In this document: positions 6,548-57,779 of the stretch, one piece after another | How the letters are laid out: every line of letters begins with the position of its first letter | Position numbering within the stretch: the stretch's first letter is position 1 | Source: Henricia sp. BOLD:AAB3569 | Taxonomy: Eukaryota > Echinodermata > Asteroidea > Spinulosida > Echinasteridae | Assembly (NCBI GenBank): GCA_037783545.1 | Contig: JBBELK010000305.1 | Location: forward strand, 434,001 to 498,000 | Reading direction: 5' to 3' | DNA length: 64,000 nucleotides | Position numbers and translations under genes: made by a program | The notes under the pieces: model-generated | Seen by the model: only the letters and a program-made list of their open reading frames with translations | Databases searched by the model: none | What the model was told of the DNA's origin: nothing

Positions 6548-8337
6548 TAGCCCCGCGAGCAGTGCTTCGGAAACCTCAGCCCTGTCTTCTAATATACACC
6601 AAATCTGTGGCAAACTCACGCAAATGAAATTTGGCCCATGGCTCTGATATTTGCTCAATAGGTGAACTCACCCCAGTTTATAAATATTCCGAAGAGTACG
6701 CATCGATCCGTCTTTCCGATGTCTAGTTTCGGTGAAATCGTGGGGAAAGTTTGAGACTTTTCGTGCGTAAAATTCCGACTTTCACCATGCGCGAGAGCGG
6801 AGAGGTCAACACAATCTAGACTGGTTCGCTGTCCTCATATTTACTTCCCTTCATCTTACGACGAAGGGAAGTAAATTGAGGATGTGGAACCAGTCTAGTG
6901 TTGACCTCTCTGCTCTCGCGCATGGTGAAAGTCGGAATTTCACGCACGGAAAGTCTCAAACTTTCCCCACGATTTCACCGAAACTAGACATCGGATCGAT
7001 GCGTACTCTTCGGAATATTTATAAACTGGGGTGAGTGCACCTATTGGGCAAATATCAGAGCCAAGGGACAAATTTCATTTGCGTGAGTTTGCCACAGATT
7101 TGGCCTATATTAGAACTAAAGACAGGGCTGAGGTTTGCAGCGTTCGAAATAGCACTGGTCCGTTGGCCAAATGACAGTTGAAATCGTCTCGGGCCAGCTA
7201 GAAAGCCTCCCCAAATGGTCCGTTTGTCCAGTTGAATTCAAATAGACCCATGCCATGTATGTGAAATTTCCGCGTTAATTTCCTTAATGCGTTTTTGTTT
7301 GCATGTTTCCGCATTTTTGTTGAGCGTGGCAGATTTTATTTTCCGTTTTTTCTACGCACGCACGGTCGTCGTCCATCTTGTTTTTACCAAGCAAGAAAAC
7401 AACGCCCTCTATTGACAGTAAATACATGTAGACTTGTGCAAGTCTATGACATTTCCGTCCGCACCAAGACACTCCTGTGCGTGCGTGATTGCATGCAAAC
7501 TGGGCACGCGCGCGTGCAGACCGCGACTGCAACGAGTCGCGATTCAGACTTCTGCAAGTCTAGTTACCAAGATGGCGCCTGAAACGTCCGTGTAGTGTGT
7601 CGTGTGCGCCCGTGTTTTTGCATGAACTGGTCGCCCGCTGCGCCTAGAGTTGACCGGCCGCTCTCGCTGGCAGGTTTGCTGACACGGCTTGCCTGGCCTG
7701 CAGTCCTTGCCCCGTCCATCCATGGCACAGCCGTGCCGTGCAGTGATAATTTTAAAGTGGAACGGATACTGGCCGTGTCCGTTAGCGATGTCGATCCTGC
7801 AGATCGTGCAGTTCTACCAGACCGACCAGACTGTCGCAGTGGATTTGGGTTGTAAGATTGCAGCTTATTGACTCCCAGAAAGTGAAAATGTAATGAAAAG
7901 TCATCATACAAAAATGTACTAACTGCGGATAAATGTTGACAAATTTTTTTTTTTTTAAATGTCGGCCTTCATAAAGTTTTTGCATTAAAAATATTTAAAT
8001 GTGCACAAAAACATGAATCCATGTGAGTTTGTAACAAAGGAGCCTTTTTTTAAGACCCAAGAATACCGGTAGCTCAAAAATTCACCACACATTTTCAAAC
8101 TTGTTCTGGGGAGAACCTTAATGACTATCAAACTTTCCTAGTTTATTCACTCTTTATTGCAAACACTAAAGGTCGACTGTGTTTAAAATAAACAACCAGA
8201 ATTGGAATTTGAACCGGGCCACTTGAAACGCCAACGGGCCAGTCAAAACTTAAGCCAACTGGTCCTGGTGGCCAGTTAGGAAAAAAGTTAAGGGCGAACG
8301 CTGGTTTGCCCCACCCGAAGCACTGCTCGCGGGGCTA
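6548..8337. mobile_element. Foldback element with 9-bp TSD, split by a nested insertion
   Basis: The ends read TAGCCCCGCGAGCAGTGCTT and its inverse. The arms (about 300 bp) are inverse copies centred near 6860. The 9-bp direct repeat GGACATCTG occurs at 6539-6547 and 8338-8346. The right arm is interrupted by the element at 7138-8303; removing it gives about 619 bp. The inner centre contains TAGACTGGTT...AACCAGTCTA, shared with another MITE family in this window. Long inverted arms and a 9-bp TSD fit a MULE-type foldback. Confidence 0.9.
7138..8303 (+). mobile_element. hAT-like non-autonomous element, copy 2 (complete)
   Basis: The TIRs are CAGCGTTCG (7138-7146) and CGAACGCTG (8295-8303). 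The 5-bp sequence GTTTG occurs on both sides (7133-7137, 8304-8308). The uninterrupted left arm of the surrounding foldback shows the pre-insertion text. The interior is the same as copy 1 at the start of the window. Short TIRs starting CAG plus a 5-bp duplication fit some hAT lineages; no transposase is visible. Confidence 0.88.
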
Positions 8338-8346
8338 GGACATCTG

Positions 8347-9025
8347 AAACCACTGCAGGACACAACTAGGAGGAAATTTTTGGGTGTGATTCTAATTTGG
8401 AGGCAAAATGACAACAATCCACTGTATGAAAGAGGTACCTTCTGTCCCTGGCCCTACGGGAAATCCGTAGGGACAGAATTATTCTGTCTAGCGCCGACGT
8501 TGTTCACAAAGATTCATGACGAAATTTATTAATGCAAGCAAAATCGATCGTGCCAACTGGCTTCGGCGCCCCTCAGTTTGGCGTGAACAGACGAGCAGGC
8601 GAACATCTCTTGTTCCAAAAAGCAGGCCACGGAATCCCCAAATTTGACACAAAACGTGTCTTTGTTGTTCATTGTTTTTGCTCGTAAGGCCATTTCGACA
8701 TTTTCGCGGCCATTTTGAAGGAGGTGCAAAGAGCGCCCTCAAGCGACGCATGTGCGTGCACAAAACATATCTAAGGCGGCATCGCGCACTGGATACAACT
8801 TCGCAATGAATTTGTTTGACTAATTAAATCGATGGCTTTGACTATAAAGCTGGTTGATTGTGATTCTATATGAGTTGTTCTTATGCTTCAGTTGAAAAAT
8901 CTAAATTAAAAGTGCCTTCTTGTCTGAATAAATCGCATTTTAAGACCCCTTCTTATTTCCCAATTTCTCTAAGATTAAGGCGGCTTGATTCCGGCACTGG
9001 ATACAATTAATAGTAAAAAAAAATT
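8347..9025. other. Intergenic with a short hairpin
   Basis: A hairpin CCCTACGG...CCGTAGGG sits at about 8452-8473. GGATACAA-containing phrases (AAGGCGGC...GCACTGGATACAA) occur twice, at about 8774 and 8979. No gene is supported; the minus frame 8488-8763 has no recognisable domain. Confidence 0.4.
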
Positions 9026-38450: not shown

Positions 38451-38566
38451 CATGCCGTTTCTTTTTAGGTTGGACTGAAGATTAGGAACTACGCCAACTG
38501 TTTTGCACCGATAACTTGAATTGTTTAATAAGCGTTTTTTCAACGAGTCAACATCGTATACACGAG

Positions 38567-39079
38567 ATGACTTCCGAAATGCAGCGTCGACCCCGTGCCG
38601 TTGTATTAATGCTGCTTTTCTCTATCAGCGGTCTCCATGCTACTTGCAACCCTTGTCCGTTCCAGTGGACGCCGTTTAACGGATCTTGCTACAGGCTCTT
38701 TACCGAGATTCCGACTCGTTCATGGTCCGAAGCTGAGAGTCACTGTCAGCAGTTTTCAAGTCGTCGTTTCGGCCATGGTCATCTTGCTTCAATCAAAAAC
38801 CAAGCGGAGCAAGACTTCATGATTGAATACTTGACACATAGCATACATAGTGGCTACATGTGGATAGGGTTATCGTTAGAGAGTCCCACTGATATTTCCA
38901 AATTTGTCTGGTCCTCAGATGGATCTGAAAATACGTACTATAGTGGCTGGTATAGTGTTTATCCATTATCGAGAACCGCGGCGCAATGCGCCGCATCTCG
39001 CAGGTCCCATGCCTTTAAATGGATTAATTTGCCTTGCTCAAACAACTACAATTTTATTTGTGAATTAAGATTAATGTGA
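38567..39079 (+). CDS. Secreted C-type-lectin-like protein
   Basis: A 170-residue protein from the first in-frame ATG (38567; another ATG at 38579 would also give a signal peptide). Residues about 6-26 form a hydrophobic signal peptide (AVVLMLLFSISGLHA). The rest is one long-form CTLD: CNPCPFQWTPFNGSCY, then SWSEAESHCQQF, WIGLSLESP, WSSDG, and a C-terminal WINLPCSNNYNFICEL. The paired CxxC start and the internal and final cysteines fit the usual disulfides. The EPN/QPD sugar motif and the WND calcium triad are not present (SVYPL and WIN instead), so classic calcium-dependent sugar binding is doubtful. It lies in one uninterrupted frame with no introns in the domain. It may be a complete single-exon gene, or the last exon of a longer one. 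It is probably an immune or adhesion lectin (inference). Confidence 0.85.
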   Translation: MTSEMQRRPRAVVLMLLFSISGLHATCNPCPFQWTPFNGSCYRLFTEIPTRSWSEAESHCQQFSSRRFGHGHLASIKNQAEQDFMIEYLTHSIHSGYMWIGLSLESPTDISKFVWSSDGSENTYYSGWYSVYPLSRTAAQCAASRRSHAFKWINLPCSNNYNFICELRLM

Positions 39080-40315: not shown

Positions 40316-41040
40316 AAAGCATTTCCTCGCAGGGAACAAATAGCTGCATTACGAGCGTACAAATCTTAAAATACATTTTCCTTTAGCCTCATTTTTTCTA
40401 ACTTGATAAACTTCTGTAAACTTATCCTGTACATACGAGTAATGTTGATAAATTTATTATCCAATCCACCATATAGAACCTTACATCTCAATGCCCAAAT
40501 ATTTCTATGCATACGTCCAATTAACATAAAAACAATAGGTTCATAAACATTCACTCATACAATCCTCCTAACATCATCCAAAATAAAACTGGGATCTTGC
40601 AAATATTTTCTAATACAATTTTCTACTAATAACCAAGGATCAATGATCTTAGAACAATTTACAAACAGATGTTGAATATTCTCTTCATTCTGATTACAGA
40701 GAGGGCATTCATCATCGTCAGTTAAACCATATTTCTTTAACCGGTTTTTGGTTGGCAAGATTTTGTGTTTTAATTTAAACCATACATTATGATCCTCTAC
40801 TTCCATCAAGTTGCATTTCCCAACTTTCCAAACATGATTCCAATTGATATCTTCAGTGACAAAGTAATCCGCCCAAAACGTTTGTACAATTGGTGGAACA
40901 AAACAATAATCTCTTAAACATTGATAAATCTGTTTCGTAGTCAGTTTACACAAATTAACCTCTTCACCATTAACATTTTTAAAAACAACCTTCTCTATTT
41001 TCAGTAACAAAATCTCTGCATATATTTTTCTTCAGAGCAC
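40316..41040 (-). pseudogene. LINE ORF2, 3' part with zinc-knuckle end
   Basis: The minus strand encodes LKHKILPTKNRLKKYG, then DECPLCNQNEENIQHLFVNC (CX2C...HX4C; CPLC at 40696-40707), then IGRMHRNIWALRCKVLYG. This is the C-terminal zf-RVT region of L1/Tx1-like ORF2. It continues the part at 52401-54526; an 11.36-kb retroelement lies between. A stop at 40553 separates the last piece. Confidence 0.88.
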
Positions 41041-41119
41041 TAGTAACCTATTTGCACAACCGCCTTTGTTTCCGTCCGACTCCGGTATCTATAGGGTTTA
41101 GATATGGGTTAGATGGATT
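41041..41119 (-). repeat. Split direct repeat B2 (element 3' end)
   Basis: Identical to 41386-41464 with an offset of 345 bp. It contains CTATTTGCACAACCGCC at the outer end. It borders LINE sequence. Confidence 0.88.
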
Positions 41120-41325
41120 GAGTATAGAAACCGAAGCCAGAGGAAAGCTCAGCAATGAGGAAGGAGGTCGGGTGGGCGGGGAAAAAAAAGGTATATATAT
41201 AATAATACTCACCAGAAGCTGGCCGCCGAGGCCAAACTATTATCTTACCACCGTTGAGACATACAACCGTATACCGTCCTCTGCCGACTCGTTCCTTCTC
41301 GTCCAAATACTCCCCACCTGCCACC

Positions 41326-41464
41326 TTGGTATACTCGAGACTGCGTAGATTCCTACGCAGCCCTCAACGTCGGCGGTTGTGCAAATAGTAACCTATTTGC
41401 ACAACCGCCTTTGTTTCCGTCCGACTCCGGTATCTATAGGGTTTAGATATGGGTTAGATGGATT
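41326..41464 (-). repeat. Internal A2-B1 junction with lox-like palindrome
   Basis: A2 (41326-41387) joins B1 (41388-41464). At the join, GGCGGTTGTGCAAATAG and CTATTTGCACAACCGCC form perfect 17-bp arms around the 4-nt spacer TAAC (41372-41409). A2 also holds the hairpin CTGCGTAG-ATTC-CTACGCAG. It looks like a circle junction, the expected substrate of the tyrosine recombinase. Confidence 0.85.
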
Positions 41465-41722
41465 TCGCCAAAACCTGCCCCCTTAATTAGGCCGCCGAGA
41501 ACCCACAAACCTGCCCAAATACACCCCAATCCTTACCCAAACCTCAAACGAAAGCGGGAGACTGTATCAGATAGAAAGGAAAGAAAAACTGGACTAGTTG
41601 TCTTGCTGCCTTTCTTTCATTTTATTTTCTTCTCTTTTCTTTTCTCAAGCTGTCGCTGCCTATAAAATTGATTAAAAAACAAAATGGGTAGTTTTGTTAG
41701 TAGGTGATGGCATTTATAGACA
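41465..41722. other. 3' non-coding part of the Ngaro-like element
   Basis: Pyrimidine-rich stretch (CTTTCTTTC... at 41600-41650) and no frame of interest. Confidence 0.5.
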
Positions 41723-42046
41723 TCAGCTGCATGTAGATGGCGGGAAAGCTACGCGGGCCCCGAGGCCCGAGTTCAGACGCCTATAGAATTGTCCGACGAT
41801 ATCTGCCATTGGACTTTGTTCAGCTGTGGAGACGGCGTCGCGTAATACCTGGACCGTGCTCTGACGCCTCATAACTCTCTCAACCTGGGTATAGTGCTTG
41901 TACGTCTTCCGCGACGCCCATTGGCAGTGGTCCATCACCTGCTCCTCCGATGCCTCCAGGAGCCGCAGTGTGGTTGCTACCCAGGCACGGCTGTTGTGCG
42001 CTCTCAAAAGCAGGTTTTCAGGATTGTCTGTTGCGGCAAAATACAT
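41723..42046 (-). pseudogene. Tyrosine recombinase, C-terminal catalytic part
   Basis: The minus frame carries AHNSRAWVATTLRLLEA (HxxR), VMDHCQWASRKTYKHYTQ (the conserved H/W position and the nucleophile tyrosine; KHYTQ at 41885-41899). These are the last catalytic residues of the RHRY set. The frame has no stop before this point within the domain, but the N-terminal part of the recombinase (to about 43000) is scattered over other frames. It would join circular cDNA to the target through the junction palindrome. Confidence 0.82.
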
Positions 42047-43049
42047 CTTCAGCCGTGAATTCGGTCCGTTAACAGGCGAAGGGTTTGTTTACGAGGACTC
42101 TGCGATTGGCCGCCAAGGGGCGAAAGATCAACCAGACTTTGAACTGCGCCGACTGGATCCATCTTTCCTTGGTCCTGCAACTTTGGAATCATTATCAATG
42201 ATGAGTCAACCTCACTTAGTGTGGCTGAATAAAAAATCGCCTCCTTCGATCCTTGTTATTTTTCAGGTTCTGATTCCTCCTAGGTCACCAGCTCTGTCCC
42301 CGGCCCATTATAGGCAGAGGAAAAGGGCCAAGTCTCGTTGTACACGTAGCGCTAGGGGAAAAGACCTTCGCCTTTGCCAAGTCTCCAGGATCGGTCAGTG
42401 ATCTCTTTCACCGACCATCGTAACTTATCAGAAAACAATGGAATTGCCTGCTTTGAAGTAATGTGAGACTCAGCCTGCTCCAGCTGCATTGCATTCATGT
42501 ATCTACGAACTTGGTGAGAGATGCAAGGGTTTGCGAACTTTTATCCCACTCGCCAGACTTCGGTGCTACCGAATGAGTTAAAGTATGCCCTTATCTGCCC
42601 AACATAAGAGTCCACAGTGCATGCCGCTAATATAAACGGGCACCCACAAGAGCAGATCCCGTGCTTACCCAAATTTTTTCACCCTAAGCCGTGAATCTGC
42701 GTGCGACCTTCCGAGTCACGATCTATCGAAAAGCGTAGGATGTCAAGTGGTGTCACCGACTCCAGATCCTCCCCTTCAGTACAGCATCATTTGCTTTGAT
42801 GCTCCCGCAGAAATCGGTCTAATGCTGCAAATAAGTCCGCTCTTTTGCACTTCATATCCCTGCGTATCCAACTCGTTTCCTAGTTTTGTCAGCCTGGTTG
42901 CCGCACTGATCATCTTCAAAAGGATACCAAAACGCTCTCGTGAAGAAGGGGAGGGCATGATTGAAGAAGAAATTTAGCATTGTATCGCAATTCCCGAGGG
43001 CAAGCCCGAAACGGATCTTAAAAACAGCCGCAGCCTGCGCTGGAGCTTA
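42047..43049 (-). pseudogene. Presumed recombinase N-terminus, unreadable
   Basis: In this position the recombinase core domain is expected. I found only short frames (for example 42776-42958) without a clear first catalytic arginine motif. The + frame 41898-42401 overlaps and is judged a shadow. Confidence 0.4.
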
Positions 43050-43718
43050 GATATCCCATCGTCGATAGGTGCACAATGTCCGCAAGATCCTGCTCCACGA
43101 TGTAATCGTTCGAGAAAAACTGCCAGCTAGCATTCACGACAGACCTCTTTCAATAATGAGTTGACTACGGCGACTGAGCGATTGATGCCCACCATCTTGG
43201 TTTGGCACATTGAGGAAAGAACAAATATGCATATTGGGAATTTTTTCCCTGATCAGTTGGGCAACAGCGCGAAAAACCCCTACCACGTCAAGTACACCCT
43301 GCGAAGGGTCGGTCACTCGGCTGAAATCATTTATGCCTCCGCGCAGAACTGCCACCTCCGGCTGAAAAGCCCTGCAAGATACCACCAGATGTCTACATAA
43401 CGGGGCCATTTTTGTGCCTCCGTTGGCTAACATTTGCACGCTCAATGCCTTGGGCCAGCCGAATCCTTTGAACCCTCTGAACATTGAGTCGGACACAAGG
43501 AGAACATGGTGACGCTTAGCGTAAGCGATATCCATTCGGGGGGTGATCGACAATACGTGGGAAGTAGCACTGGAAGGCCCAGAGCTCAAACCCCAGCCCT
43601 TGAAAAATTCGGGACATATCCCGTAGAAGACGGGTATTCTAAAAACCCCTGCTTGACCTGCCTCTGACAGGCGAAAGGAAGAACTTGAGTGGAGACCCGT
43701 TCCTGCGCGCCGGGACAT
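43050..43718 (-). pseudogene. SGNH hydrolase domain of the Ngaro-like element
   Basis: The frame has HVLLVSDSMFRGF (block I Ser; VSDSM at 43482-43496), MLANGGTKMA (Gly block), VAVLRGGINDFSR (Asn block; 43323-43340), and after a +1/-1 shift near 43137, DLADIVHLSTMGYL (D-x-x-H block V; DIVH at 43069-43080). All four SGNH residues are present. Esterase-like domains of this fold are known in some Ngaro/DIRS and CR1-type elements. It may act on lipids or other esters; the role in retrotransposition is unknown. Placed between RNase H and YR. Confidence 0.8.
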
Positions 43719-43739
43719 TTGACGAAAGTGCCGTCAAAT

Positions 43740-44225
43740 CAAAGGTGAAAACCTGTGGGACTACCAGATGGGACCTAGGTCAACTTGAGCGAAAAATTTG
43801 CCTCCAAGGAGAGGGCAAAACAAAAAATTAAACTTCAACATTTTTGAAAGCGGTTTAGACCTAGCTCGGAGGCCAGTCCAAGCATCCACCACATTTCTGG
43901 AATCTCCAACCACATCCACCATCAAGTTCCATAGCGAATCAAAGACTGAGAGCCACACAAAATATAGATCAAGGGCCTCCTTGCGACATATACCCGTGTG
44001 TCCCAAAATGTCTGCAGACCAGTAATCTCAGAAACTTACACAACCGTCTGGTAAGACTAGGGTACCGCCCTATTTATAGCCAGATGCGTCTGCCGACAGT
44101 GCGATGCGATAGCAAGGTGGCGGCCTTGACTTCAAGGGATCAGCTGCGAGAAGCTATCGACAAACCTCCAAAATAGAATCTCCTCCCGCACTTGTGGTGA
44201 CAGAGGCGTAGGCACGAGATCATAT
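43740..44225 (-). pseudogene. RNase H region (weak)
   Basis: A minus frame (43761-44006) contains NVVDAWTGLRARSKPLSKML followed by FAQVDLGPIW. These resemble the late RNase H blocks (D-N-x-VV-x-AW and the V-x-W-x-P turn). The first aspartate block was not found. Assignment rests mainly on position after RT. Confidence 0.5.
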
Positions 44226-45275
44226 CAAGTGTAGATATGAAGGAGGAGCATTCCCTCAGAAACAAACAAACACCAGAGCAAAACTTTGGCCTTTGCCCAC
44301 AAAACGTTGCATCTGCTTTTAGAGCATTTTATCCTCCCGCAAAATTGTCTCTCGTACCTCAGCGAATGATACCTTTTTATGCTCAGGAATCGGAAATGAT
44401 AGGGTTTGGAGCAGATGCCGAACCCGAGATGCACCATGCTGTTCGATGGCTGCCGATGACTTTTCTTTAAGTTGCTGAACAAGTCGAGCTTTAACTGTAT
44501 GTAGCGTACGACGTAAACGGCCCTTACAGCTCTGATGTAGGAACCGTCCCCATGCATGTCGTGTTCACACCGCAATAAAACAAACACGACTGAAGTGTTT
44601 TAAACCTTCGTATACTTTGCCCCTCCATCGCTGGGATGGCATTCGCCAATGAAACGGTCGTCTATCCAGATTTCTGTATGTATACCTCTGTTCTTAAGCC
44701 CTGCAGGAAGACAAAAGCCAATGGATGAGTAAACTTATGCACTGTTTTTTTTTTTTTTTTTAAACCAAACCCACTCGAAGCCGGAAAAGGTTCTGGACTC
44801 CTTGGTCAAGAAGATTTGCTTGTATCCCTGGCTGTTGTCGGTACTTGAGAAAATATCGCCTTTGGTTATGGGTCTGACAACATTGCCTAAAGGTACCACA
44901 CGTACTGAAGGGTGTGTCCTTGCGCCAAAGATTAGGTCCCTTCATTGATAGAAGCAGACGCGGCTTCTTGGGTTCAACTGTCAATGCAGTCACACATTTC
45001 GGCGGCTGTACTTCCTTGACCCTACCCACAACGTATATAGAGCCCTCTATCCACCGCCTGGTGATTGTGTCTATGAAAAAGGCGACATAATCTTGACAAA
45101 TGAGCGCATTTAAAATACCTTTCGGTGGGCAATTATAAACAGCAATTCCTGCCCCTGTATCTGCCATGAAACGACTGGAAAAATCATACAGACTAATTCC
45201 ATGATGAAGCCAACCATGAACTTCGTCCCTATTGGGTGACTCTGCTAAGATATCGTCCCAAAGCACCAGGATCAT
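44226..45275 (-). pseudogene. Reverse transcriptase N-terminal part
   Basis: The minus frame 44760-45275 begins MILVLWDDILAESPNRDEV. It contains VHGWLHHGISLYDFSSRF, NCPPKGILNALI, FFIDTITRRWIEGSIYVVG, then CVTALTVEPKKPRLLLSMKG. That is the order seen at the start of YR-retroelement RT (PP...N..A, W..G.I, PLTV...KPRLILD). A YxDD block was not identified with confidence downstream. A T-run (44746-44761) interrupts the 3' part, and 44225-44587 reads as an unrelated or shifted frame. Confidence 0.7.
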
Positions 45276-45323
45276 TGCTTAATGTGCCGGCTACAAAATA
45301 GTTGGATCTCTGAACCCGAGCGC

Positions 45324-45781
45324 CTATAAATCTACCTGTAGTCTACCAGAGAGAACTTCAGGCGGGGTGGGTGTAAAAGGGACTGGCAAGCCACTTAATT
45401 TGCCATTGAAAACTACCCGCTGGGAGGTGCCTCGTTTCCGCTTCGCTGCGTGCGTAGCGATGGGATCAAAAGATTGATCAAAATCTCTCTCACACAGATG
45501 ACTCTCCAGCATTTTCAAATACCACTGGTACTCAAATGTTTTTCCTTTACATCTTCGGCAAACAAAGGCTCGAACTCGTCCACGTATTCTCTAAACACAG
45601 ACATCACGTAGACAACCTTGCGATCATAGCTCGTCTCCATGCACGCTTGAGCAGCTGCAGGCGTCTTGGCTTGTGGACATCCAGAGCCGACTTGGGCTGC
45701 ATGTATGGAACAAACCATCACATAATTCGTTGACGTGCTAACGGGGCCCGCCGTTCGACCTTTCATAAACGCACAAACCAC
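45324..45781 (-). pseudogene. gag C-terminal or linker frames
   Basis: Two adjoining minus frames (45515-45781 and 45324-45518) include STSTNYVMVCSIHAAQVGSG, MSVFREYVDEFEPLF and FTPTPPEVLSGRLQVDL. No zinc knuckle is present. Placed between the repeat tract and RT, they fit the end of gag; I recognise no named domain. Confidence 0.5.
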
Positions 45782-45939
45782 GGCACTTTTATTTATTTTT
45801 TTTGCTTTTTTTGTTTTGTTTTGTTTTTACATTTTTTAGCAAAACTTTGCGAACGGGGTACTTGAACTTTGGGATTCACAAAATGGCACAAAGAGGTGCC
45901 CCTGGACCACATTAAAATCAGCGTGCCAGCGAAGGCCCA

Positions 45940-46830
45940 TCAACATGGCATACAGAGGCCCGCCCTCTGCCAGGTACAGAGTACATATATGCGAAATAGA
46001 AGTACACTGTACCCCAAACATGGCAGTCAGAGGCCCGTCCTCTGCCAAATACAGAGTATGCGAAATAGAAGCACATTGTACCACAAACATGGCATTCAGA
46101 GGCCCGTCCTCTGCCAAGTATAGCGAGCATATATGCAAAATAGAAGTACATTGTACCACAAACACGGCATTCGGAGGCCCGTCCTCTGCCAAGTACATTT
46201 GTACCTTAAACATAGCATTCAGAGGCCCGTCCTCTGCCAAGTACATTGCACCATAAACATAGCACTCAGAGGCCCGTCCTCTGCCAAGTACATTTGTACC
46301 ATAAACATAGCATTCAGAGGCCCGTCCTCTGCCAAGTACATTGCACCATAAACATAGCATTCAGAGGCCCGTCCTCTGCCAAGTACATTGCACCATAAAC
46401 ATAGCACTCAGAGGCCCGTCCTCTGCCAAGTACATTTGTACCATAAACATAGCATTCAGAGGCCCGTCCTCTGCCAAGTACATTGCACCATAAACATAGC
46501 ATTCAGAGGCCCGTCCTCTGCCAAGTACATTTGTACCATAAACATAGCATTCAGAGGCCCGTCCTCTGCCAAGTACATTGCACCATAAACATAGCATTCA
46601 GAGGCCCGTCCTCTGCCAAGTACATTTGTACCTTAAACATAGCATTCAGAGGTCCGTCCTCTGCCAAGTACATTGCACTATGAACATAGCACTCAGAGGC
46701 CCGTCCTCTGCCAAGTACATTTGTACCATAAACATAGCATTCATCAGAGGCCCGTCCTCTGCCAAGTACATTGCACCATAAACATAGCATTCAGAGGCCC
46801 GTCCTCTGCCAAGTACATTTGCACCATGAA
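45940..46830. repeat. Core 47/48-bp array with AGAGGCCCGTCCTCT hairpins
   Basis: About 17 units of the type GCATTCAGAGGCCCGTCCTC then TGCCAAGTACATTGCACCAT. Two variants (ATTGCACC, 47 bp; ATTTGTACC, 48 bp) alternate in places, giving a 95-bp higher-order unit. Each has the hairpin AGAGG-CCCGT-CCTCT. Frames on both strands repeat as a result and are not genes. Confidence 0.93.
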
Positions 46831-47970
46831 CTTGCGCGCATCTGCTCACTGAGCTCCGTGACCCTACGCTCAGCGCAGGAAAATGACACGGAAAACAGCC
46901 CCTCACTGCGAACTTTTGTGAGTACATAAAAAAAGTACGTCTATGTTTCTCCCCAACTCGCTATGCATTTCAAAGTACAGAGTATTACCTTTAGTTTAAG
47001 TATTATTTTATAAAATATATGATGCACGGGGAAAAGGGGCTTTTTTCACTCAAAGAACGGGTGTTGAACCTCAAAATCGGCAAAGTCAATGGAGGTCAAC
47101 ACGATTACTGATCATTTTTCAGTGGGTTGTCTCACTGAATTGAACGGCACAGTCGTTCTCTGTGACACACAGATTCAACTCGCACTTATGCATAAACTAC
47201 ATAAAATTCCCGTCCCACTCATATATGAATCATTTTGATTGGACAAGGGGAAAAAGGGTTTTTTTTGCTTCAAATCATAGAATGTCTCTCATCTAAGACC
47301 ATGACCCGATTGTAATATGCAACGTGTTTCTATAGTCTGGCTACACATATCCTCTTATAATCACGCGTGTATTGGTAGGATGAACGGGGAACTAGATCAG
47401 GCCACGTATTCGTCTCGCCGAAACAGAAGCACGTTGGAAAGCTGTTCGCTTTGTCCTCCTGATTGTTCGTTTTTCACCGATTCATCGCCTCAAAACTACA
47501 TTTTTTAGTAAATGAATATGTCTTCATACCATAGGATTTCTGTTATTTTCGTAACATTTACTGGATATCGGTAAAACGAGGTTTATTTGCCGTCAATGCT
47601 AGTCAGACCAAAGCATTAATCCTTGGAGGGGTGTAATATACATATTACGTGAATAAGTGGGTTTGTTTATCAAACCTTGCATTCATACCGTTGTTAATGT
47701 GATGAAGAAAACATCAGTACTTATGAAATAAAATTTCATTTAGCTGAACAGTTTTTAAACTCCAAAATCTTGTATTGTGTACTACTGCATACTGTCTACA
47801 GTAGCTATAATCTCTTCGTCCCCTCCATTGTGTGAAATGGTCCAGTCCATTTGACCTGCTTCACAAAGAATGTGTGTGCTGTGTACACAAGGTCAGAGGC
47901 CACGCTGCATGCGCTACACACACAGGGTCCGTTGTTTGTTGCACAAAATCAGGGCAAAGTTGTTCATATG
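46831..47970. other. Non-array stretch inside the Ngaro-like element
   Basis: No AGAGGCCCGTCCTCT motif. A phrase GGGGAAAA(G)GGG-CTTTTTT-type recurs at about 47027 and 47250. No gene is supported. Confidence 0.45.
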
Positions 47971-48485
47971 ATAGCATTCAGAGGCCCGTCCTCTCAGAGG
48001 CCCGTCCTCTGCCAATTAGTACAGAGCACCTGTATGCGAAATATAAGTACATTTGTACCATGAACGTGGCTTTCAGAGGCCCGTCCTCTGCCTATCACAG
48101 AGTACATATCTGCGAAAAAGAAGTACATTGTACCATAAACATGGCATACAGAGGCCCGTCCTCTGCCTAGCACAGAGTACATATACGAAATAGAAGTACG
48201 TTGCACCATAAACATGGGCCCGTCCTCTGCCTAGTACCGAGTGCATACGGTGTATATGCAAAATAGAGTTACATTGTACATTGTACAATAAACCTGATAT
48301 TCAGAGGCGGCCCGTCCTCTGCCTAGCACAGAGTACATACGGTGTATACGCAAAATATGGTTACATTGCACATGTACCATAAGCCTAGCATTCAGAGGCA
48401 CGCCCTCAGCCTGGTACCGAGTACACATGCAAATCAAGGGTACATTCATACAGAGGCCCGCCCTCTGTGTATCGCACCTGCAATA
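47971..48485. repeat. Diverged hairpin-motif array, second block
   Basis: About 8 units with spacing near 60-95 bp, each with AGAGGCCCGTCCTCTGCC or a close variant, joined by CATATATGCGAAATAGAAGTACA-like spacers as in the first part of the core array (45960-46140). Confidence 0.88.
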
Positions 48486-48955
48486 TAAATGCTCATTAAA
48501 GTTGCACTGCCCGTACTTGGGCCTACTTGGGCGAACAATTTTTTTTTTTTTTTTAAGGTTAAATAGGTAACTTTCCCGAATAGAAAAAGTTATCAGCCCC
48601 CACTTGGCACCAAGAACGTAAAAATCCGTCAAGGACCAACGCCAGTCGATCAAAAACAAGAAACGACCAAATGGCTGGCAGGTCACCCAATCGACAGGGC
48701 CATGACGCAAATGCACATGTGCGCGCACATGTGCACATTGCACACACACCATGTACATACGAGCGCACGCGCACATGCACAACATGAAAAGCACGTTTCA
48801 AGAAAAAGGCCTGCATCTCCAACTCCCGACGTCGGAAACTTAAGTTTTTGATATTTTTCGTTACAGAGACACGTAAGCTTTATAAATTCGTTCGCTTGTG
48901 TAAATTAATTTTTATTTTTAATCCTTTCACCGAAACACGGGCAATGCAACTTTAA
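48486..48955. other. Spacer with T-tract and alternating purine-pyrimidine stretch
   Basis: A T-tract at 48539-48555, and CATGTGCGCGCACATGTGCA-type alternation at about 48713-48784, which could form Z-DNA or hairpins. Minus frames here are low-complexity. Confidence 0.5.
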
Positions 48956-51030
48956 GCTTGGTGTCCCGAGGCCCGTCCTCTAGCACACACGCCATTTATG
49001 GGTATATTACACTTGACATACGGGGACCCGTCCTGTGCCTAGTACCTGTATCTATACACATAGAAAACATGGGCACATTAAAATTTGGCATTCATAAAAT
49101 TGATTTTTATTGAAATTTTGAATTCAGAAACCCGTCCTCTGCCTATGTACACGCCCTTATGTACCAATACCAAATAAGAGCGCATATTAATAGGGATACG
49201 CTAATTCAGAGGTCGGCTGTCTAGTAAAGGGTACCCATGCCAAAATTAGCGTCACATCAGAACTTGGCATCTCAACTTGGCGTTTAGAGGCCCTCCTCTG
49301 CCTAGTACACATGCAAGCTATGAACATATTAAACTTGGCATTGGGAGGCCCGCCCTCTATCTAGTATATAGAGTACGTGGGCAATATTTACTCGGTCCGT
49401 CCTCTGTCTAGTACCGAGTACATGTGGAATATGTATTACCACTTAGTATTCAGAGGCCCGATCTCGGCAAGTACACATGTAATCTATGGGTACTTTGAAC
49501 TTGCCCTTTAGAGGCCCGTCCTCGGCCTATACAGATTCTGACTAAGGTTATGACGAAACTAAGTATTGTCAAGCCAAACCCCCAGTGCATCTATGCTTGC
49601 TGCCTAATGGCGACACATATCTATCATTCAGTCTAATTGACGTGCTCACGAACAACAGCATAGCATTCAGAGGCCCATCCTCTGCCTCCTCGAAGGAACT
49701 GGAAATTAAGACATGGGCTATTTCACAATAAGTGTACACTTTCAGTCTCACTGGCAAATCGGGGTAAAATTTCAAACTTGTCCAACTCACAAAACTTTGT
49801 TGATCTAAAAACTTCAGGATGTATACTAATAATTCAAAAAATATCAGAGCGTGGCATTATGATTAACGTGTTTATTTTTTCCACTGAAATAATAATTTGT
49901 AATTGGTTGTCTGGAGAGGACATTTTGTTAAACACAGAATATCACAATATAATGGCCAGACTAAATGTTGAAATGGTAATGCCATGTAATGTCCTGTTAC
50001 AAGGAATGGTACTGTTAATTTTACAAACCTAACAACGAAATATTTCAATCATGGTTGACATGTTATAGTACAATTAACTGCTGTCCTGGAGAGGACGAAT
50101 GTTTAACGGATTTTCCACAACCCTGAATATGATCTTGATAAAATTTACTCAAATCTCTCCCACGATGTGTCATGTGATGATACAAACATCTTTGTGAGTA
50201 CATATCTCCAAACTATTCCATTGTGTGGAATACCTTGACCTGGAGAGGACATTACCATATTTTGTTTAACGGGAAATTCACTTTATTTTGAAAGGTTCAT
50301 AAAATTAACATTTATTTTGACCGAATTACACCAACCCAAGTTTCACAATATTGTTGAACACTATATATCCATGATTGATCACCAAATTTACCACAATAAT
50401 GCATCATCAACAAATGATTGCACTTAAACTAATGCAAAACTTGAAATGAGACTCCAAAATGGTGTTAAAAGTGCATGTAAATAGAGAAATTCAAAACGAA
50501 TAACTCGTAGAATTATGTAAAAAGAGTTCTGTAGCTTGTCCTTCATATTACCCGTCATATAAAATCACTCATAACATGTATATGCACTGATAAAGTTATC
50601 CAGGATGGGTTATACTGTAATCTACTCAAATGACCACCCACTGTGAAATAGCCCACATGTACTCAGGGACCAGTCCTGGTCCATAGAAATACGATCTAGG
50701 CCTTGATACTCGGAAGCCCAACCCGTGCTTCGTAAATTGCCTAACAAAAGATGCGCTTAAACTGCGCGTTTGGGGGCCCGTCCTCCACTTCATACATTTA
50801 GTAAGCAAGAGTCCATTCACTTGCCACTTAGGGCCTGTTCCATTACCTATGAGGGCGCTAACACAGGTACCTTGAAACAAAAGGCCAGAACCAGATTTCC
50901 CAAATGCTAGGCTGACTCCTTTTTTATTGCTGTATTGCGCTCGCTATACATGCTCGAGCAATAACAAAATAAGAATTGTGAGGGCACTTTCCGAACTACG
51001 AATCTTGAAAGAGGCCCGCCCTCTATCATC
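48956..51030. repeat. Highly diverged hairpin-motif repeats
   Basis: Variants of GAGGCCCGTCCTCT remain at about 48968, 49024 (GGGACCCGTCCTGTGCC), 49130, 49275, 49346, 49452, 49512, 49668, 50775 and 51011. The spacing is large and the spacers are unrelated. The phrase CTGGAGAGGACA recurs at about 49910, 50083 and 50240. The series suggests one old array that decayed outward from the core. Confidence 0.7.
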
Positions 51031-51117
51031 TAACGAACCTGCCAAACTGGTATTTTAATTCCCATGATTCAAGGGCGTGCCCCGTTTATAAACATGCTAG
51101 AATTGCACCCTGAGCCT

Positions 51118-51335
51118 TGTTTACCCGTTGGAGCATTCGCTCCAGATTTCGGCGTTGTCCTCCATATAGATCCATAGGACGCCAAGGTGAACAAATTCTC
51201 CCTCCAGCGGTCTTCCAGACCTTGCAATTGGTCGATGTCTTCCCAACCATCCTTGGCGAGCTCCTTAAAACACTTAGATGAAATATTAAAAGTGCCGCAC
51301 AGGCCTATAATTAGGCGCTTGCTGAGTCGTCAATG
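51118..51335 (-). pseudogene. gag-like fragment near the element 5' end
   Basis: The minus strand reads SKRLIIGLCGTFNISSKCF, KELAKDGWEDIDQLQGLEDR, WRENLFTLASYGSIWRTTPK in one frame. The composition is that of a soluble helical protein, unlike its flanks. By position (after A1, before pol) it should be Gag. I do not recognise a named domain. Confidence 0.5.
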
Positions 51336-52338
51336 GCCTGGTTGGTGGGCATCCGCCTTTTCCTATAGGGAGCACGAAAAAGGCAACAAAGAAAATTGAA
51401 ATTTCGGAAACTGTTTGTGTAAACGCCTATTATCGAAAACATTTTCACCTGCCCATGCCTTCTCCGACCCACGCTGTACCTTGGCCGCCTGGCTCCATGA
51501 AAAGGCGGAGAAAAGCACTGTTTCGGAGACGCGTGTGTTAAACTGCCCTTAGCTTTTCTTTTTTTTTTAAATTGTTATAATGCGTACTTGTGCATGGTGG
51601 GCTTAGTAGCCCAACATAATTAAAGAGTCGTATGCATTTGTATACGTACAAAATATTTGGCTGTATACCTTGTATACCTGTCGAATGGTTGGGCCCCCGT
51701 CGCCACACGGGTGATACCTACAAAATACGAGCCTGAGGCTACTAGGCCTAATTCGCCATATTTATGGGCCTGACAGATGTTTTACCAAAACTGAATAATA
51801 TCTTATGACATATAAAGCATTCAAGCAATTCGTACCTCAACTAAGGCGTAAATCATGTCCATCTTCAGCACATTCAGCAAACGAGTACATGTAGTTGGAA
51901 ACTTGTCCGGTACGTAAAACACGACGAGGCAGCATAACCCGCACACAGCATTGGCACTATAGCCTATAATACACACGCAAGCCCAATGAGAGGTGCATTG
52001 CTTAAGGCACGCGAAAATTCAAAAGGAATTACTGGAGCGCGCTCTACCATTGTTGAGAAAGAGCCAATTTGACTATGTACGTACGTATAGGCTTTACCCA
52101 ACGTAGTGCCAACCATGCGTGCGGTAACGGCGATTGCTTGAAGCTGCCCACACCTCACAAATGTTTAAATGCCTCTAAATTACTCTGGTTACCTGATTTC
52201 GCCTTACAAAACATCCCAAACTCGACGCTAGGTAACACACTGCTGCACTTTCATTTTCCTCGAAATATATCAGCTAATGGATGATAATTCAAAACCATTA
52301 ATTATCCCGAGCGATCACACACACGTCCACCCGACGGG
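51336..52338. other. 5' region of the Ngaro-like element
   Basis: No clear coding blocks. A minus frame at 51964-52158 (SFSTMVERAPVIPFEFSRAL) is of unknown nature. Confidence 0.35.
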
Positions 52339-52400
52339 TTGGTATACTCGAGACTGCGTAGATTCCTACGCAGCCCTCAACGTCGGCGGTTGTGCAAATA
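52339..52400 (-). repeat. Split direct repeat A1 (element 5' end)
   Basis: Identical over 62 bp to A2 (41326-41387), ending GGCGGTTGTGCAAATA on the + strand. LINE sequence follows (GCAATCC...). Confidence 0.88.
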
Positions 52401-54526
52401 GCAATCCGTCCCGCATTGATAGGGGGAATGTTATATATCTGAGCCAGCTTATCAAAAGATATTAATTCTCCATTACAAATTATTTTCCCCAGACGTTCAA
52501 CTCCCATGGGCCTCAAAATTTTGCTATCCATAAATTTTTCCTCATTATTTGTCACAACATTATTTTTCCAGAGCGGTAAATTAAAAGTTTCGTTAACACA
52601 GAAAAACAGCTTACTACTATGTATATGTATCTTAACGTTAGAACAAACATTAATTACATCTTTATAATACGGCTGAGGTCCTTGAATGACCACTTTGGGA
52701 CACTGTAAAACATACCATCTTAAATTACATTCTCCACATTCTCCTCTCTCCATTTCCCAGTGCCTTCTCGAAATCGCCTTAAAACATTTATCTTCCAAGC
52801 TTGTAGTTTTAATTTAATATCAATTATGCCCGCACCACCTTTTTCAACAGGGCCACACATAGTTTTCCTTTTAATTTTGTCAATCTTACCATTCCAAAAA
52901 AACGACAATTTTAACCTTTCCGTTTAATCTATGTATTTGTCCGGGCAGTTAAGAACTGAGCCATAATATGAAAGACTAGCCCCCAAAAACGTATTAACAA
53001 TTAAAGCTTTTTCCTTCATGGTTAAGTCTCTGGTTCTCCATCTATTCAAAACTGTTTCTATTTTGCATAAAATAGGCCCCCAATTTCTTTCTTCGTTGTC
53101 ATCATTACGCACGTAAATTCCCAGAATGTTCAAATGGTCATTCACCCATGAAAATCCCCCCGGTTGATCAATCCGACCCTTCATTGTCCTAACCATAGCC
53201 CTTGAGATTTTTGCACGTTGATTCGAGATCCAGACCCTTTACCATATACATCAAAAATATTTTCCAAAGCACCAAATTCCTAATTGTCAGTTATAAAAAT
53301 AGTGGTATCGTCGGCGTGTTGTATGAGCCTAAAGGACAAGTCACTATTAGGCAAAGATATACCCCAAAGCAGGATTACTTCTAATTAAACATGCTAAACC
53401 TTCTGCACACATAGAAAACAAAAGAGGTGAGAGTGGACACCCCTGTCTCACTCCCCTCGTTACTTTAAAGGGCTCCGTTACAAAATTATTTACAATTACA
53501 GAACTAAAAGGGATATAACGTATTAACCCATCCAATTAAACCTTTGGGAATTCCCATTTTTGTCATTATTAAAAACATATATTTCCACTCGATTCGGTCG
53601 AAAGCTTTCTCCTGATCGATACTTAATAAGGCACCTTGTTTATCTTCATTATTTACAACATAAATGACATCTCTAAAAATCATTAGGTTATTTTGTATGT
53701 TTCTACCAGAAACTCCGCACGACTGGTCTTCGCCAATAACGTGCGGCATCAATTTTTTGAGACGGTTAGTAATTATCTTTGAAACAATCTTATAATCAAC
53801 ATTAAGAAGACTAATTGGCCTCCAGTTTTTCAAGTTATCTCTTTCACCCTTGTTTTTGAAAATTAAACCTTCATTTTTACTTACATTAATAACTTCGCAA
53901 AGATCTTCCTTAATAAGAGGCCAAAAAACTTGATAAAATTCGACCGTCAGGCCATCTACACCGGGAGATTTATCTTTGTTCATTTGATTTAGTGCAAAAA
54001 AATTCATTTTCATCGCAATCTTTTTCCATATCATTAATAGTGTCTTGATAAAAAACAGTGTTATCAACAGAATCAAGTATTTCATCACAGGCCTCGTCGC
54101 TAATTTTTTCGCTTGTATATATAATTTCTTATAGAAGGAGTTGACTTGGTTTAAACATAAAAAATGTGAATCTTGTACGTTTTGCCATCTTCACCAATCA
54201 AACTTCTTATAGTATTAGCATCAGTTTTTTGCTTAAACGCTCTTAAAAAGAATTTTGTTGGCTTTTCCCCGGCCATTTTGTTTATATGAGATCTAATTCT
54301 GGCTTTTTGCAATTTTTCATTTTTCAAAGCCTTAATTTATCTTCGATTTTATTAATTTCAACAAAATCATCTTCTCTATTGTTGTTCAGAAGATGAGTGA
54401 GCCTGTTTTGTAATTTATCTTTGCGCTTCTTTTCAATGTGATATTTGTCTAGGCTGTAATCTTCAATTATTTCCTTTATTAACTTTGCCTTTCCGATATC
54501 CCACCATTCCAAAATACTATGAAATT
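52401..54526 (-). pseudogene. LINE ORF2 (L1/Tx1-like), RT part, 5' truncated
   Basis: Minus-strand blocks in order: WWDIGKAKLIKEI (54512 region), GEKPTKFFLRAFKQKTDANT, KSPGVDGLTVEFYQVFW, NWRPISLLNVDYKIVSKII, DQEKAFDRIEW, RGVRQGCPLSPLLFSMC (about 53417-53458), HADDTTIF (catalytic block, 53307-53318), WRTRDLTMKEKALIVN and FFWNGKIDKIKRK. This is the RT and connection region of the L1/Tx1 group. Frameshifts separate several pieces. The apurinic endonuclease is missing: homology stops at 54526, where a minisatellite begins, consistent with 5' truncation. Confidence 0.9.
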
Positions 54527-55976: not shown

Positions 55977-57197
55977 GGGGCCTTATTCACAAAGCCCCCA
56001 CAACGATTTGCGGGCACGCAACTACCCAGTACCCCCACTTAAGCTTTTGCGGGTTATTTACAAAACCGACTTAAATCTGTGTTCACCCGTAAACTGCCCG
56101 TGAATTTGCGGGAACTCCAGACTTCCCGCAACGGGCCCACAACTTGAGTGAGTCGTCTTAAGTGTAAAAATGGCGGCACTCATGGCAGTATATTCGATTC
56201 AAGAAGAACTGAATCGACAGTAAAAAAAAAAAAGGTCATGTACAAATATTTGTTACATGTACCCTTGTTTGTGATAAAACATATGTATTGTGTAAAACAT
56301 ATGTACAGTAAATTACTGTAAGAGATTACAGTAAGGTACTGTAAAACAATTACAGCTATTTTTTACAGTGTAGTATGGACACAGTAATGGCGGATAGCAG
56401 CCGTTGTCAAGCCAAGTGAAACCCAAGAATACCGTAAACCGGGTCACATTACATAGCAACCACACATTTAGTCTGGTCATCTAAGTGTGCAAAGGCTTAT
56501 TTTATAACGACACCATCCGCTGATGACAGATGTATTTGTCATTGTGTGATTTTATGAAGCCCCGCATTAGTGTCATATGTGGTATTTATTTCACGAAGTT
56601 GTGCATCTCTTTTAAAGGGTGGGTTTCTTACTATAATTTGCGGCCGCACGATAATAACTTGTGGCACTATAAAATGGAGCTTCATAATGATTCGGATTGG
56701 CCACAGAGAACATACTTAACTTGAAGGGATCTTTCTAATAGTTTTTTTTACATGCCGTTTTTTTTTGGTCTTTTTTTCTGGTGTTATGTATCCTTTAATC
56801 ATATTTGTAGAGTGTGACTTGCTCAATAAACAAGTGTTTGAACGGTGAATTGATGTGCAAAATGACACTCATTTCGACAATTATGTTTCAAACTGATATT
56901 CGAGATATAATTGTTTTTGGCATTCAACTACTGTACATTCATAAATTTCTAAGACAGTTTACGCATCCTCATTGGCTGAGAACACATCACGAGGCTGGAT
57001 TTAAACGAACGATAATAACCAGTGATTAAAACTTGCTCTTTGCGTTAAGTTGCCGGTGCCCGCAGTTTGCGGGTCTTCAAAGGAAACTCTCAGGGTGCTT
57101 CGTGAATAACACTTAACGCAAGTCCTACGTGCCCTTAACATCCACTTACTGGCCCCGCAAAACGCAAAATTTGCGGGTGCTTTGTGAATAAGGCCCC
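55977..57197. mobile_element. Element with GGGGCCTTATTCACAAAGC ends
   Basis: The left GGGGCCTTATTCACAAAGC is inverted at 57179-57197. Further TGCGGG/CCCGCA pairs lie inside both ends (56005-56130, 57045-57180). An inner piece ends in TTTTTTACAGTG near 56370, like the neighbouring CACTG family. About 1.2 kb; frames at 56530-56724 and 56814-57029 are unassigned. Confidence 0.7.
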
Positions 57198-57204
57198 AGC
57201 CCCG

Positions 57205-57598
57205 CAGACCGGTCTACCCCAACGGGCTGTCCAGCGGGTTGATCGGTGGGCTGGATGGCGGAGAGGTCCATGGGCTTATCTTTGGACTGGTCAGCGGGCC
57301 GGTAGGTCGGTTGGTCAGCGGGCCGGTAGGTCGGTTGGTCGGCGGGCTGGTCGGCGGGCTGGTCGGCGGGCTGGTCGGCGGGCTGGTCGGCGGGCTGGTC
57401 GGCCGGCCGCTCGGCGGGCTGGTCGATGGGGTGGTCAGCGGGCCGGCCCGTGGACTGATCGGCGGGTTGGTCGACGGGCTGGTCGGCGGGTTGGTCGACG
57501 GGCTGGTCGGCGGGCTGGTCGGCGGGCTGGTCGGCGGGCTGGTCGGCGGCCTGGTCGAAGGGCTGGTCGGTAGGCTGTCCTGTGGGATGTCCAACAGT
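57205..57598 (+). repeat. GGCGGGCTGGTC minisatellite, right part
   Basis: About 30 units of 12 bp. As 12 is a multiple of 3, all frames are open: GGLVGGLV, RRAGRRAG and TSPPTSPP repeats. No signal or domain supports a protein. Confidence 0.93.
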
Positions 57599-57779
57599 CT
57601 GCCCAAAAAATAATAAAATAAAATAAAACTAGAGCTACGTCTGTTCTATGAACAGGGCGTAGGGCTTTTTCACATTTTTTAACTTCATAACTTGAAAAAC
57701 GCCTAACCAGAATACAATTAACCAAATTCTCCGTCTTTGAACAATTTTAAATTATAAGCCAAAAACTGTTTGACCAATG
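57599..57779. other. Intergenic
   Basis: An AATAAAATAAAATAAAA patch (57606-57628), then unrecognised sequence. Confidence 0.4.

Follow-up and report, generated by a model that had tools for sequence, protein, structure and literature searches.

A Ngaro-like tyrosine-recombinase retrotransposon family of Henricia sp. that most likely multiplied in trans after the death of its genes

RESULTS

The element and its empty site

The stretch of DNA analyzed here (the window) comprises 64,000 nucleotides from Henricia sp. BOLD:AAB3569 (Echinodermata; Asteroidea; assembly GCA_037783545.1, contig JBBELK010000305.1, positions 434,001 to 498,000). It harbors a large element bounded by split direct repeats, which, on the evidence set out below, is very probably a non-autonomous Ngaro-like tyrosine-recombinase (YR) retrotransposon that has kept its decayed genes as ballast and was moved in trans. 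The element lies on the minus strand, running from its 5′ end at 52400 to 41043, and represents a net insertion of 11,358 bp in which the repeats follow the order A1...B1-A2-B2. It is inserted into a long interspersed nuclear element (LINE), and the features that define its ends are as follows.

41043 to 52400, minus strand: whole element, delimited by the repeat boundaries and by an exact empty site in three of three LINE paralogues
52339 to 52400, minus strand: A1 repeat, 62 bp
41326 to 41387, minus strand: A2 repeat, identical to A1; holds an 8-4-8 inverted repeat (CTGCGTAG/CTACGCAG)
41388 to 41464, minus strand: B1 repeat, terminating in the spacer GGTTAC
41043 to 41119, minus strand: B2 repeat, terminating in the spacer GGTTAC, which adjoins the host
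40555 to 41042, minus strand: host flank, 3′ part of the LINE open reading frame (zf-RVT; PF13966, E = 3.8e-11)
52401 to 54190, minus strand: host flank, reverse transcriptase (RT) part of the same LINE (RVT_1; PF00078, E = 1.7e-17 on 53507 to 54190); the joined flanks match three paralogues

The complete split-repeat layout proposed in the initial annotation is real, and its strand is minus. A1 and A2 are identical over 63/63 positions (52339–52401 and 41326–41388) when the C at 52401, which is common to host and element, is counted, and over 62 bp without it. B1 and B2 are identical over 79/79 positions (41386–41464 and 41041–41119), of which the last two are also host bases at the right end. 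The span originally given, 41041 to 52402, was right to within two bases, the A1 edge at 52402 having been placed two bases too far, as judged from the empty site. The 8-4-8 inverted repeat inside A and a 6-7-6 inverted repeat inside B may be accessory sites. No inverted pair of at least 30 bp was found within 40500–53000, and the terminal repeats are direct, as opposed to the inverted terminal repeats of DIRS1-like elements. The internal repeats (41464–41043) lie downstream of the putative YR pieces (41726–42540), a placement that depends on the YR label.

The identity of the host as a LINE is given by the Pfam matches to RVT_1 and zf-RVT in the flanks, and the window copy is inserted into the LINE coding frame: when the two flanks are joined, the reading frame is open across the joint, until a later gap. 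A genome search with the joined flanks found uninterrupted paralogues that read GGATTG-CTA-G at the joint in three of three cases, and both target-site duplication and target loss are absent when the window insertion is compared with these three empty sites.

Decayed gene pieces

Between the repeats, the initial annotation had recognized gag-like, RT, RNase H-like, SGNH and YR pieces in the known order. We retain the following labels.

45327 to 45590, minus strand: decayed frame at the gag position, labeled from its position; no Pfam match
44603 to 45278, minus strand: decayed RT pieces (44763–45278, 44738–44941 and 44603–44734), labeled from motifs read by eye
43764 to 44564, minus strand: decayed region at the place of RNase H, labeled from its position
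43137 to 43733, minus strand: decayed SGNH/GDSL hydrolase frame, 199 amino acids (aa)
41726 to 42540, minus strand: decayed YR pieces (42355–42540, 42052–42255 and 41726–42088), labeled from motifs read by eye

Only the SGNH label has a profile behind it, and a weak one: PF13472 matches at E = 0.0018, under its curated cut-off, and the PDB chain 4q9a_A at E = 0.0018. The frame also contains a GGIND block, which we take to be an SGNH motif. The RT pieces carry motif-A-like and IDD-like motifs, presumably those of a reverse transcriptase, and the last YR piece retains H-x-x-R, W and Y, ordered, by eye, as in the other YRs of the genome. Against Pfam and PHROGs, the RT and YR pieces yielded nothing useful: both RT pieces scanned (44763–45278 and 44738–44941) were without a Pfam match, and the YR tail matched neither PF00589 nor a PDB entry. 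An informative Pfam match was likewise absent for the two pieces scanned from the RNase H region. Nine element frames gave no Pfam match to a methyltransferase-like domain, which decay could hide. The split direct repeats, the position of the repeats past YR, the lack of target duplication and the weakly matched SGNH frame all fit a Ngaro element; as the RT and YR pieces were assigned by eye from their motifs, we call the element Ngaro-like. The coding frames are broken, as had been claimed, the longest sense stop-to-stop frame in the coding part of the window copy being 199 aa.

Copies in the genome and their target sites

The genome searched was the window's own assembly (740.7 Mb). With the right end of the element (424 bp) as a query, the best 40 of 508 candidates, the window included, were near full length at 98–100% identity; with the left end (821 bp), the best 40 of 461 candidates were 94–100% identical. 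The family is present at well over a hundred genome places, and the A and B ends, for which a genome search had been advised, are not confined to the window but recur far more than chance would allow. Of the other 39 right-end copies that were scored, the 20 best-ranked were fetched at about 10 kb each; these, together with the window copy, constitute the 21 rows referred to below.

The same decayed interior was found in 20/20 fetched copies. Most long stretches are 93–98% identical, shorter aligned stretches, chiefly in the repeat region, are 80–92% identical, and indels and large deletions are present. RT, SGNH and YR pieces occur together in all 20 copies and do not, therefore, belong to unrelated nested elements, an outcome that had initially been entertained. 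The B1-A2-B2 end is present in all 21 copies read (the 20 fetched ones having been selected by that end). Comparison of B1 with B2 inside each copy gave 6 differing sites in total over 21 copies x 77 bp, against a mean of 1.65 positions per 77 bp when B1 was compared between copies. A1 equals A2 in the three copies tested, one of which (L011) has a private A variant in both of its A repeats. Judged by this within-copy repeat identity, the view that the insertion was recent and RNA-mediated is supported. Some contigs look duplicated, with identical left flanks in L011 and L046 and in L047 and L048.

For 16 copies both ends were read: the element is preceded by a host C in 16/16, and the next two host bases, beyond the element, are T in 15 and A in 14, the probability of such agreement by chance being <2e-6 per target-core position (base frequencies assumed). 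Distinct left flanks end in C in 16 of 17 cases (17 being distinct among 19 rows). Rows L030–L035, L037, L038, L040, L042 and L044–L048, being left ends in reverse orientation, were excluded from the right-end counts. The right-end spacer is the same as the internal B1/A2 spacer in 21/21 copies (11 GGTTAC, 10 GATTAC), and the left-end bases differ from site to site. Agreement between right-end and internal spacers would be expected if a circle whose joint, B1-spacer-A, derives from the internal B1-A2 recombined with a CTA-like site; it could also come from common descent of both spacers. The outcome of insertion is YR-like, with no duplication, no loss and a common CTA-like core.

Shared lesions in the coding region

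None of the 20 fetched copies has a sense frame of more than 225 aa. A change of frame separates the middle YR piece from the tail piece in 21/21 rows and sets two RT pieces apart in 20/21 rows, in each case at one offset. The SGNH piece is closed by an identical TGA in 20/21 rows, L010 (for which the position was extrapolated) being the one that differs. We also searched the genome with the SGNH piece and with the YR tail, scoring the best 150 of 603 and the best 150 of 459 candidates, respectively. Among these, the longest open frame was 229 aa for SGNH, most rows having forms of 191 or 166 aa, and 206 aa for the YR tail, where one break is common: 64/150 rows, by manual count, begin at residue 33–35. 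Distinct substitutions between copies number 88, 73 and 86 at codon positions one, two and three, and 28% of the between-copy changes are synonymous, compared with 23% expected without selection; the frames therefore bear no sign of selection.

Other lesions mark sub-lineages. A 162-bp insert in the YR region (~42651–42652, minus strand; element position ~9750) is present in 17/19 aligned rows, namely L009, L012 and L014–L028, the two without it being L013 and the window copy; alignment at this point was not possible for L010 and L011. It resembles a miniature inverted-repeat transposable element, with inverted ends GCAGCCGATTTCACGAA... A second lineage, represented by L078 and L079, which are 96% alike over 2.6 kb, matches the window element at ~86–93% in long pieces. 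In the stretch read, both lack the YR gene and most of SGNH, and the right end of each is B1-A2-B2, set in flanking DNA that differs between the two (their left ends are not in the stretch read).

An insert of ~178 bp near element position 8358 was seen in 13/21 rows (L010, L014–L020, L022, L024–L026 and L028). Its distribution, taken with that of a variant with a deletion in the B repeat (L021, L027 and L028), is at odds with a simple tree, which hints that templates were switched between copies.

The B1/A2 junction

The point at which B1 meets A2 is presumed to be the recombination core site.

41372 to 41409, minus strand: B1/A2 junction, with 16-bp perfect inverted arms and a 6-bp spacer (41388–41393)

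Its sequence, GGCGGTTGTGCAAATA-GGTTAC-TATTTGCACAACCGCC, is a perfect 16-6-16 palindrome. A genome search for the central 32 bp gave 39 exact places when the spacer was set to GRTTAC (control, 0) and 165 places when the spacer was left free and as many as 3 mismatches were tolerated (the pattern being symmetric, 165 per strand; control, 0). A short-frame YR-tail or SGNH match lies, by eye, within ~1.8 kb of 39/39 exact junction places. The arms of the second lineage show a matched two-sided change, from GGCGG/CCGCC to GACGG/CCGTC, plus one unmatched change; the two-sided change mildly supports use of the symmetry of the junction. The RNA folding z-score of the B1-A2 stretch is -8.9, as would be given by any long palindrome. 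We found no 16-6-16 core site in the titles and abstract openings of a literature to which most subscription journals and Repbase do not contribute.

Stem-loops in the 5′ half

The non-coding 5′ half of the element contains repeated stem-loops.

45933 to 51025, minus strand: 25 stem-loops of the form CAGAGG-RCGGG-CCTCTG, or near forms, scattered over the 5′ half on the element's sense strand
46144 to 46831, minus strand: tandem array of ~14 units of 47/48 bp with the stem-loop

A 26th listed match, at 44346, is unlike the others and was taken as chance. At least 18 stem-loops are present in 18/20 fetched copies; the two others, L011 with five and L028 with none, have large deletions there. A loose stem test of the remaining 52.5 kb of the window gave 1 and 3 matches on the two strands. 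The 688-nt array folds better than 20/20 shuffles (z -3.9), and two short pieces gave unremarkable z-scores of -1.1 and -1.7, so that folding lends mixed support to a predicted functional RNA structure in the array. Rfam, at its gathering thresholds, reported no RNA family in the window.

Other features of the window

Positions 1–1027 and 7314–8303 are ~98–99% identical in direct orientation and represent a recent duplication or a repeated element. An array of ~78-bp repeats at 978–2011 is open, by happenstance, as a 235-aa frame. Pfam matches identify a C-type lectin frame at 38489–39079 on the plus strand (PF00059, E = 6.9e-13) and, at 57149–57628 on the minus strand, a frame of repeated D-Q-P-A units (PT disordered repeat).

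DISCUSSION

The most likely reading of these data is that the family multiplied in trans, after its genes had died. It is carried by the YR frame step shared by all rows, by lesions that recur within sub-lineages and by the lineage without YR. If copies continued to be made once the genes were lost, the enzymes would have been supplied from elsewhere, and we see no simpler reading. A helper enzyme would reverse transcribe the element RNA, from A1 through B2; the internal B1-A2, serving as a template, would restore both ends and close a circle with the joint B1-GRTTAC-A2, as repeat identity and spacer inheritance suggest. A helper YR, presumably binding the 16-bp arms, would then recombine the circle with a genomic CTA-like site. 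At the window insertion the target is neither duplicated nor lost, and in the copies read the left joint keeps host bases and the right joint has the element spacer.

The initial annotation had suggested movement by proteins of another copy. Movement in trans is supported, but the source need not be the element's own family, given the lack of long frames among the best-scored matches and the existence of other open YR frames. The genome is rich in tyrosine-recombinase elements: PF00589 matches above cut-off at 141 scored places, most with frames of at least 300 aa and up to 1057 aa, and these open frames are candidate helpers.

Several points weigh against mobilization in trans. A helper was not found among the 20 of 141 scored PF00589 matches that were sampled, none being close to the YR of the element (at best 37% over 49 aa), and an intact, diverged partner could be hidden beyond the best 150 of 603 and 150 of 459 matches. 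The frame step between RT pieces is not constant, L009 differing from the rest, and the window copy has length differences in RT and SGNH that are absent from 20/20 and 19/20 copies, respectively, along with several smaller ones. The membership of the pieces in one gene is a reading of motifs by eye, transcription and a circular intermediate are presumed, and the duplicated-looking contigs mean that copy counts overstate the number of independent insertions.

The explanation closest to ours, with which it overlaps, is that intact members of this family, sharing its ends and present now or until recently, have acted as helper and left many dead offspring. This is a serious, if less probable, contender: such is the usual state of retrotransposon families as generally understood, and scoring covered the best matches of each gene search. 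However, a short-frame YR-tail or SGNH match accompanies every exact core junction, and whole sub-lineages carry one lesion, so that it was lesioned forms that were copied. That errors of assembly or base calling mask an intact autonomous element, as had initially been considered, is the least credible of the explanations, and we give it almost no weight. The length differences private to the window copy may be such errors, or real private decay; as a general cause, error is rejected because the same lesions (the YR step in every row, the SGNH stop in all but one) recur at different loci. Frames are, moreover, short in all 150 scored matches of both genes, long ones are missing from the 20 other copies, and substitutions are neutral by codon position.

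It is very improbable that the breaks are spliceosomal introns or programmed frameshifts in working genes. Some breaks are indeed common to nearly all copies, but changes at third positions are not in excess, the lesions vary among sub-lineages, the 162-bp insert interrupts the YR region in most aligned copies, and one lineage has no YR gene at all. Cryptons, which are also YR elements, move as DNA, and a few flanks here are duplicated between contigs, so that the copies might instead come from DNA-level duplication, or from YR excision and reinsertion with no RNA step. This, too, we regard as highly unlikely: the flanks differ among the 16 paired insertion sites, A2-B2 would be expected to be lost if the left end and the B1/A2 junction were the points of excision, yet all 21 copies read (20 of them selected by that end) retain it, and repeat variants are homogenized within a copy, as reverse transcription would give. 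A more elaborate proposal is that the element parasitizes other YR retrotransposons, with its ends and the non-coding 5′ half as the only parts in use, the stem-loops being a multivalent RNA signal that captures the gag or RT of a helper and the 16-6-16 palindrome capturing the YR of a helper from a different family. We consider this unlikely as a whole, and the role of the stem-loops in capturing a helper is a guess.

Ngaro elements of animals, fungi and protists are outlined in the literature as A1-[ORFs]-B1A2B2 split direct repeats with a tyrosine recombinase (PMC4157794, PMC9210276, PMC8547959), and the element described here resembles them in its split direct repeats and, if the label read from motifs is right, in its putative recombinase. 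It differs in the decay of its genes in the copies examined and in having a stem-loop array within a long 5′ half that is non-coding. Xenopus Ngaro families are summarized as having an added SGNH hydrolase placed after YR (PMC9210276); a weakly matched SGNH is found here as well, but before YR. Ngaro elements of Cafeteria are reported to be ~6 kb (PMC8547959), compared with 11.4 kb here. For DIRS1-like elements, the outline given is of recombination, free of target duplication, between a 3-bp circular junction and the identical 3 bp in the genome (PMC3266345). The Henricia element is similar in having a shared core, CTA, and no target duplication, but it has split direct repeats where DIRS1 has inverted terminal repeats, and the methyltransferase-like domain of DIRS1 had no Pfam counterpart in the nine frames scanned.

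SIRE of Trypanosoma cruzi is presented as a short non-autonomous form of VIPER without genes of its own, equated with the A2-B2 region in one account and with a 5′ and a 3′ piece combined in another (PMC6681497, PMC12278014). Both SIRE and our element are YR derivatives that lack functional genes of their own; the latter retains the whole gene carcass and both ends. Giant DNA transposons of Ectocarpus, whose own transposase is predicted, according to their summary, to be pseudogenized, implying movement in trans (PMC12477816), are likewise large, but are not YR retrotransposons. Within the same literature coverage as above, no title or abstract opening described a long, decayed, trans-mobilized Ngaro family.

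Trans-mobilization is well known for pairs of LINEs and short interspersed nuclear elements (SINEs) and for pairs of long terminal repeat (LTR) elements. For YR retrotransposons it is thinly documented, the clear case in the literature found being SIRE and VIPER in trypanosomes. The large and recent set of copies in Henricia exposes a recombination site, a target core and the direction in which the spacer is inherited, as well as an exact empty site, and with this family the circle-joint model of YR retrotransposition becomes testable. It also serves as a warning that perfect terminal repeats do not mean a functional element.

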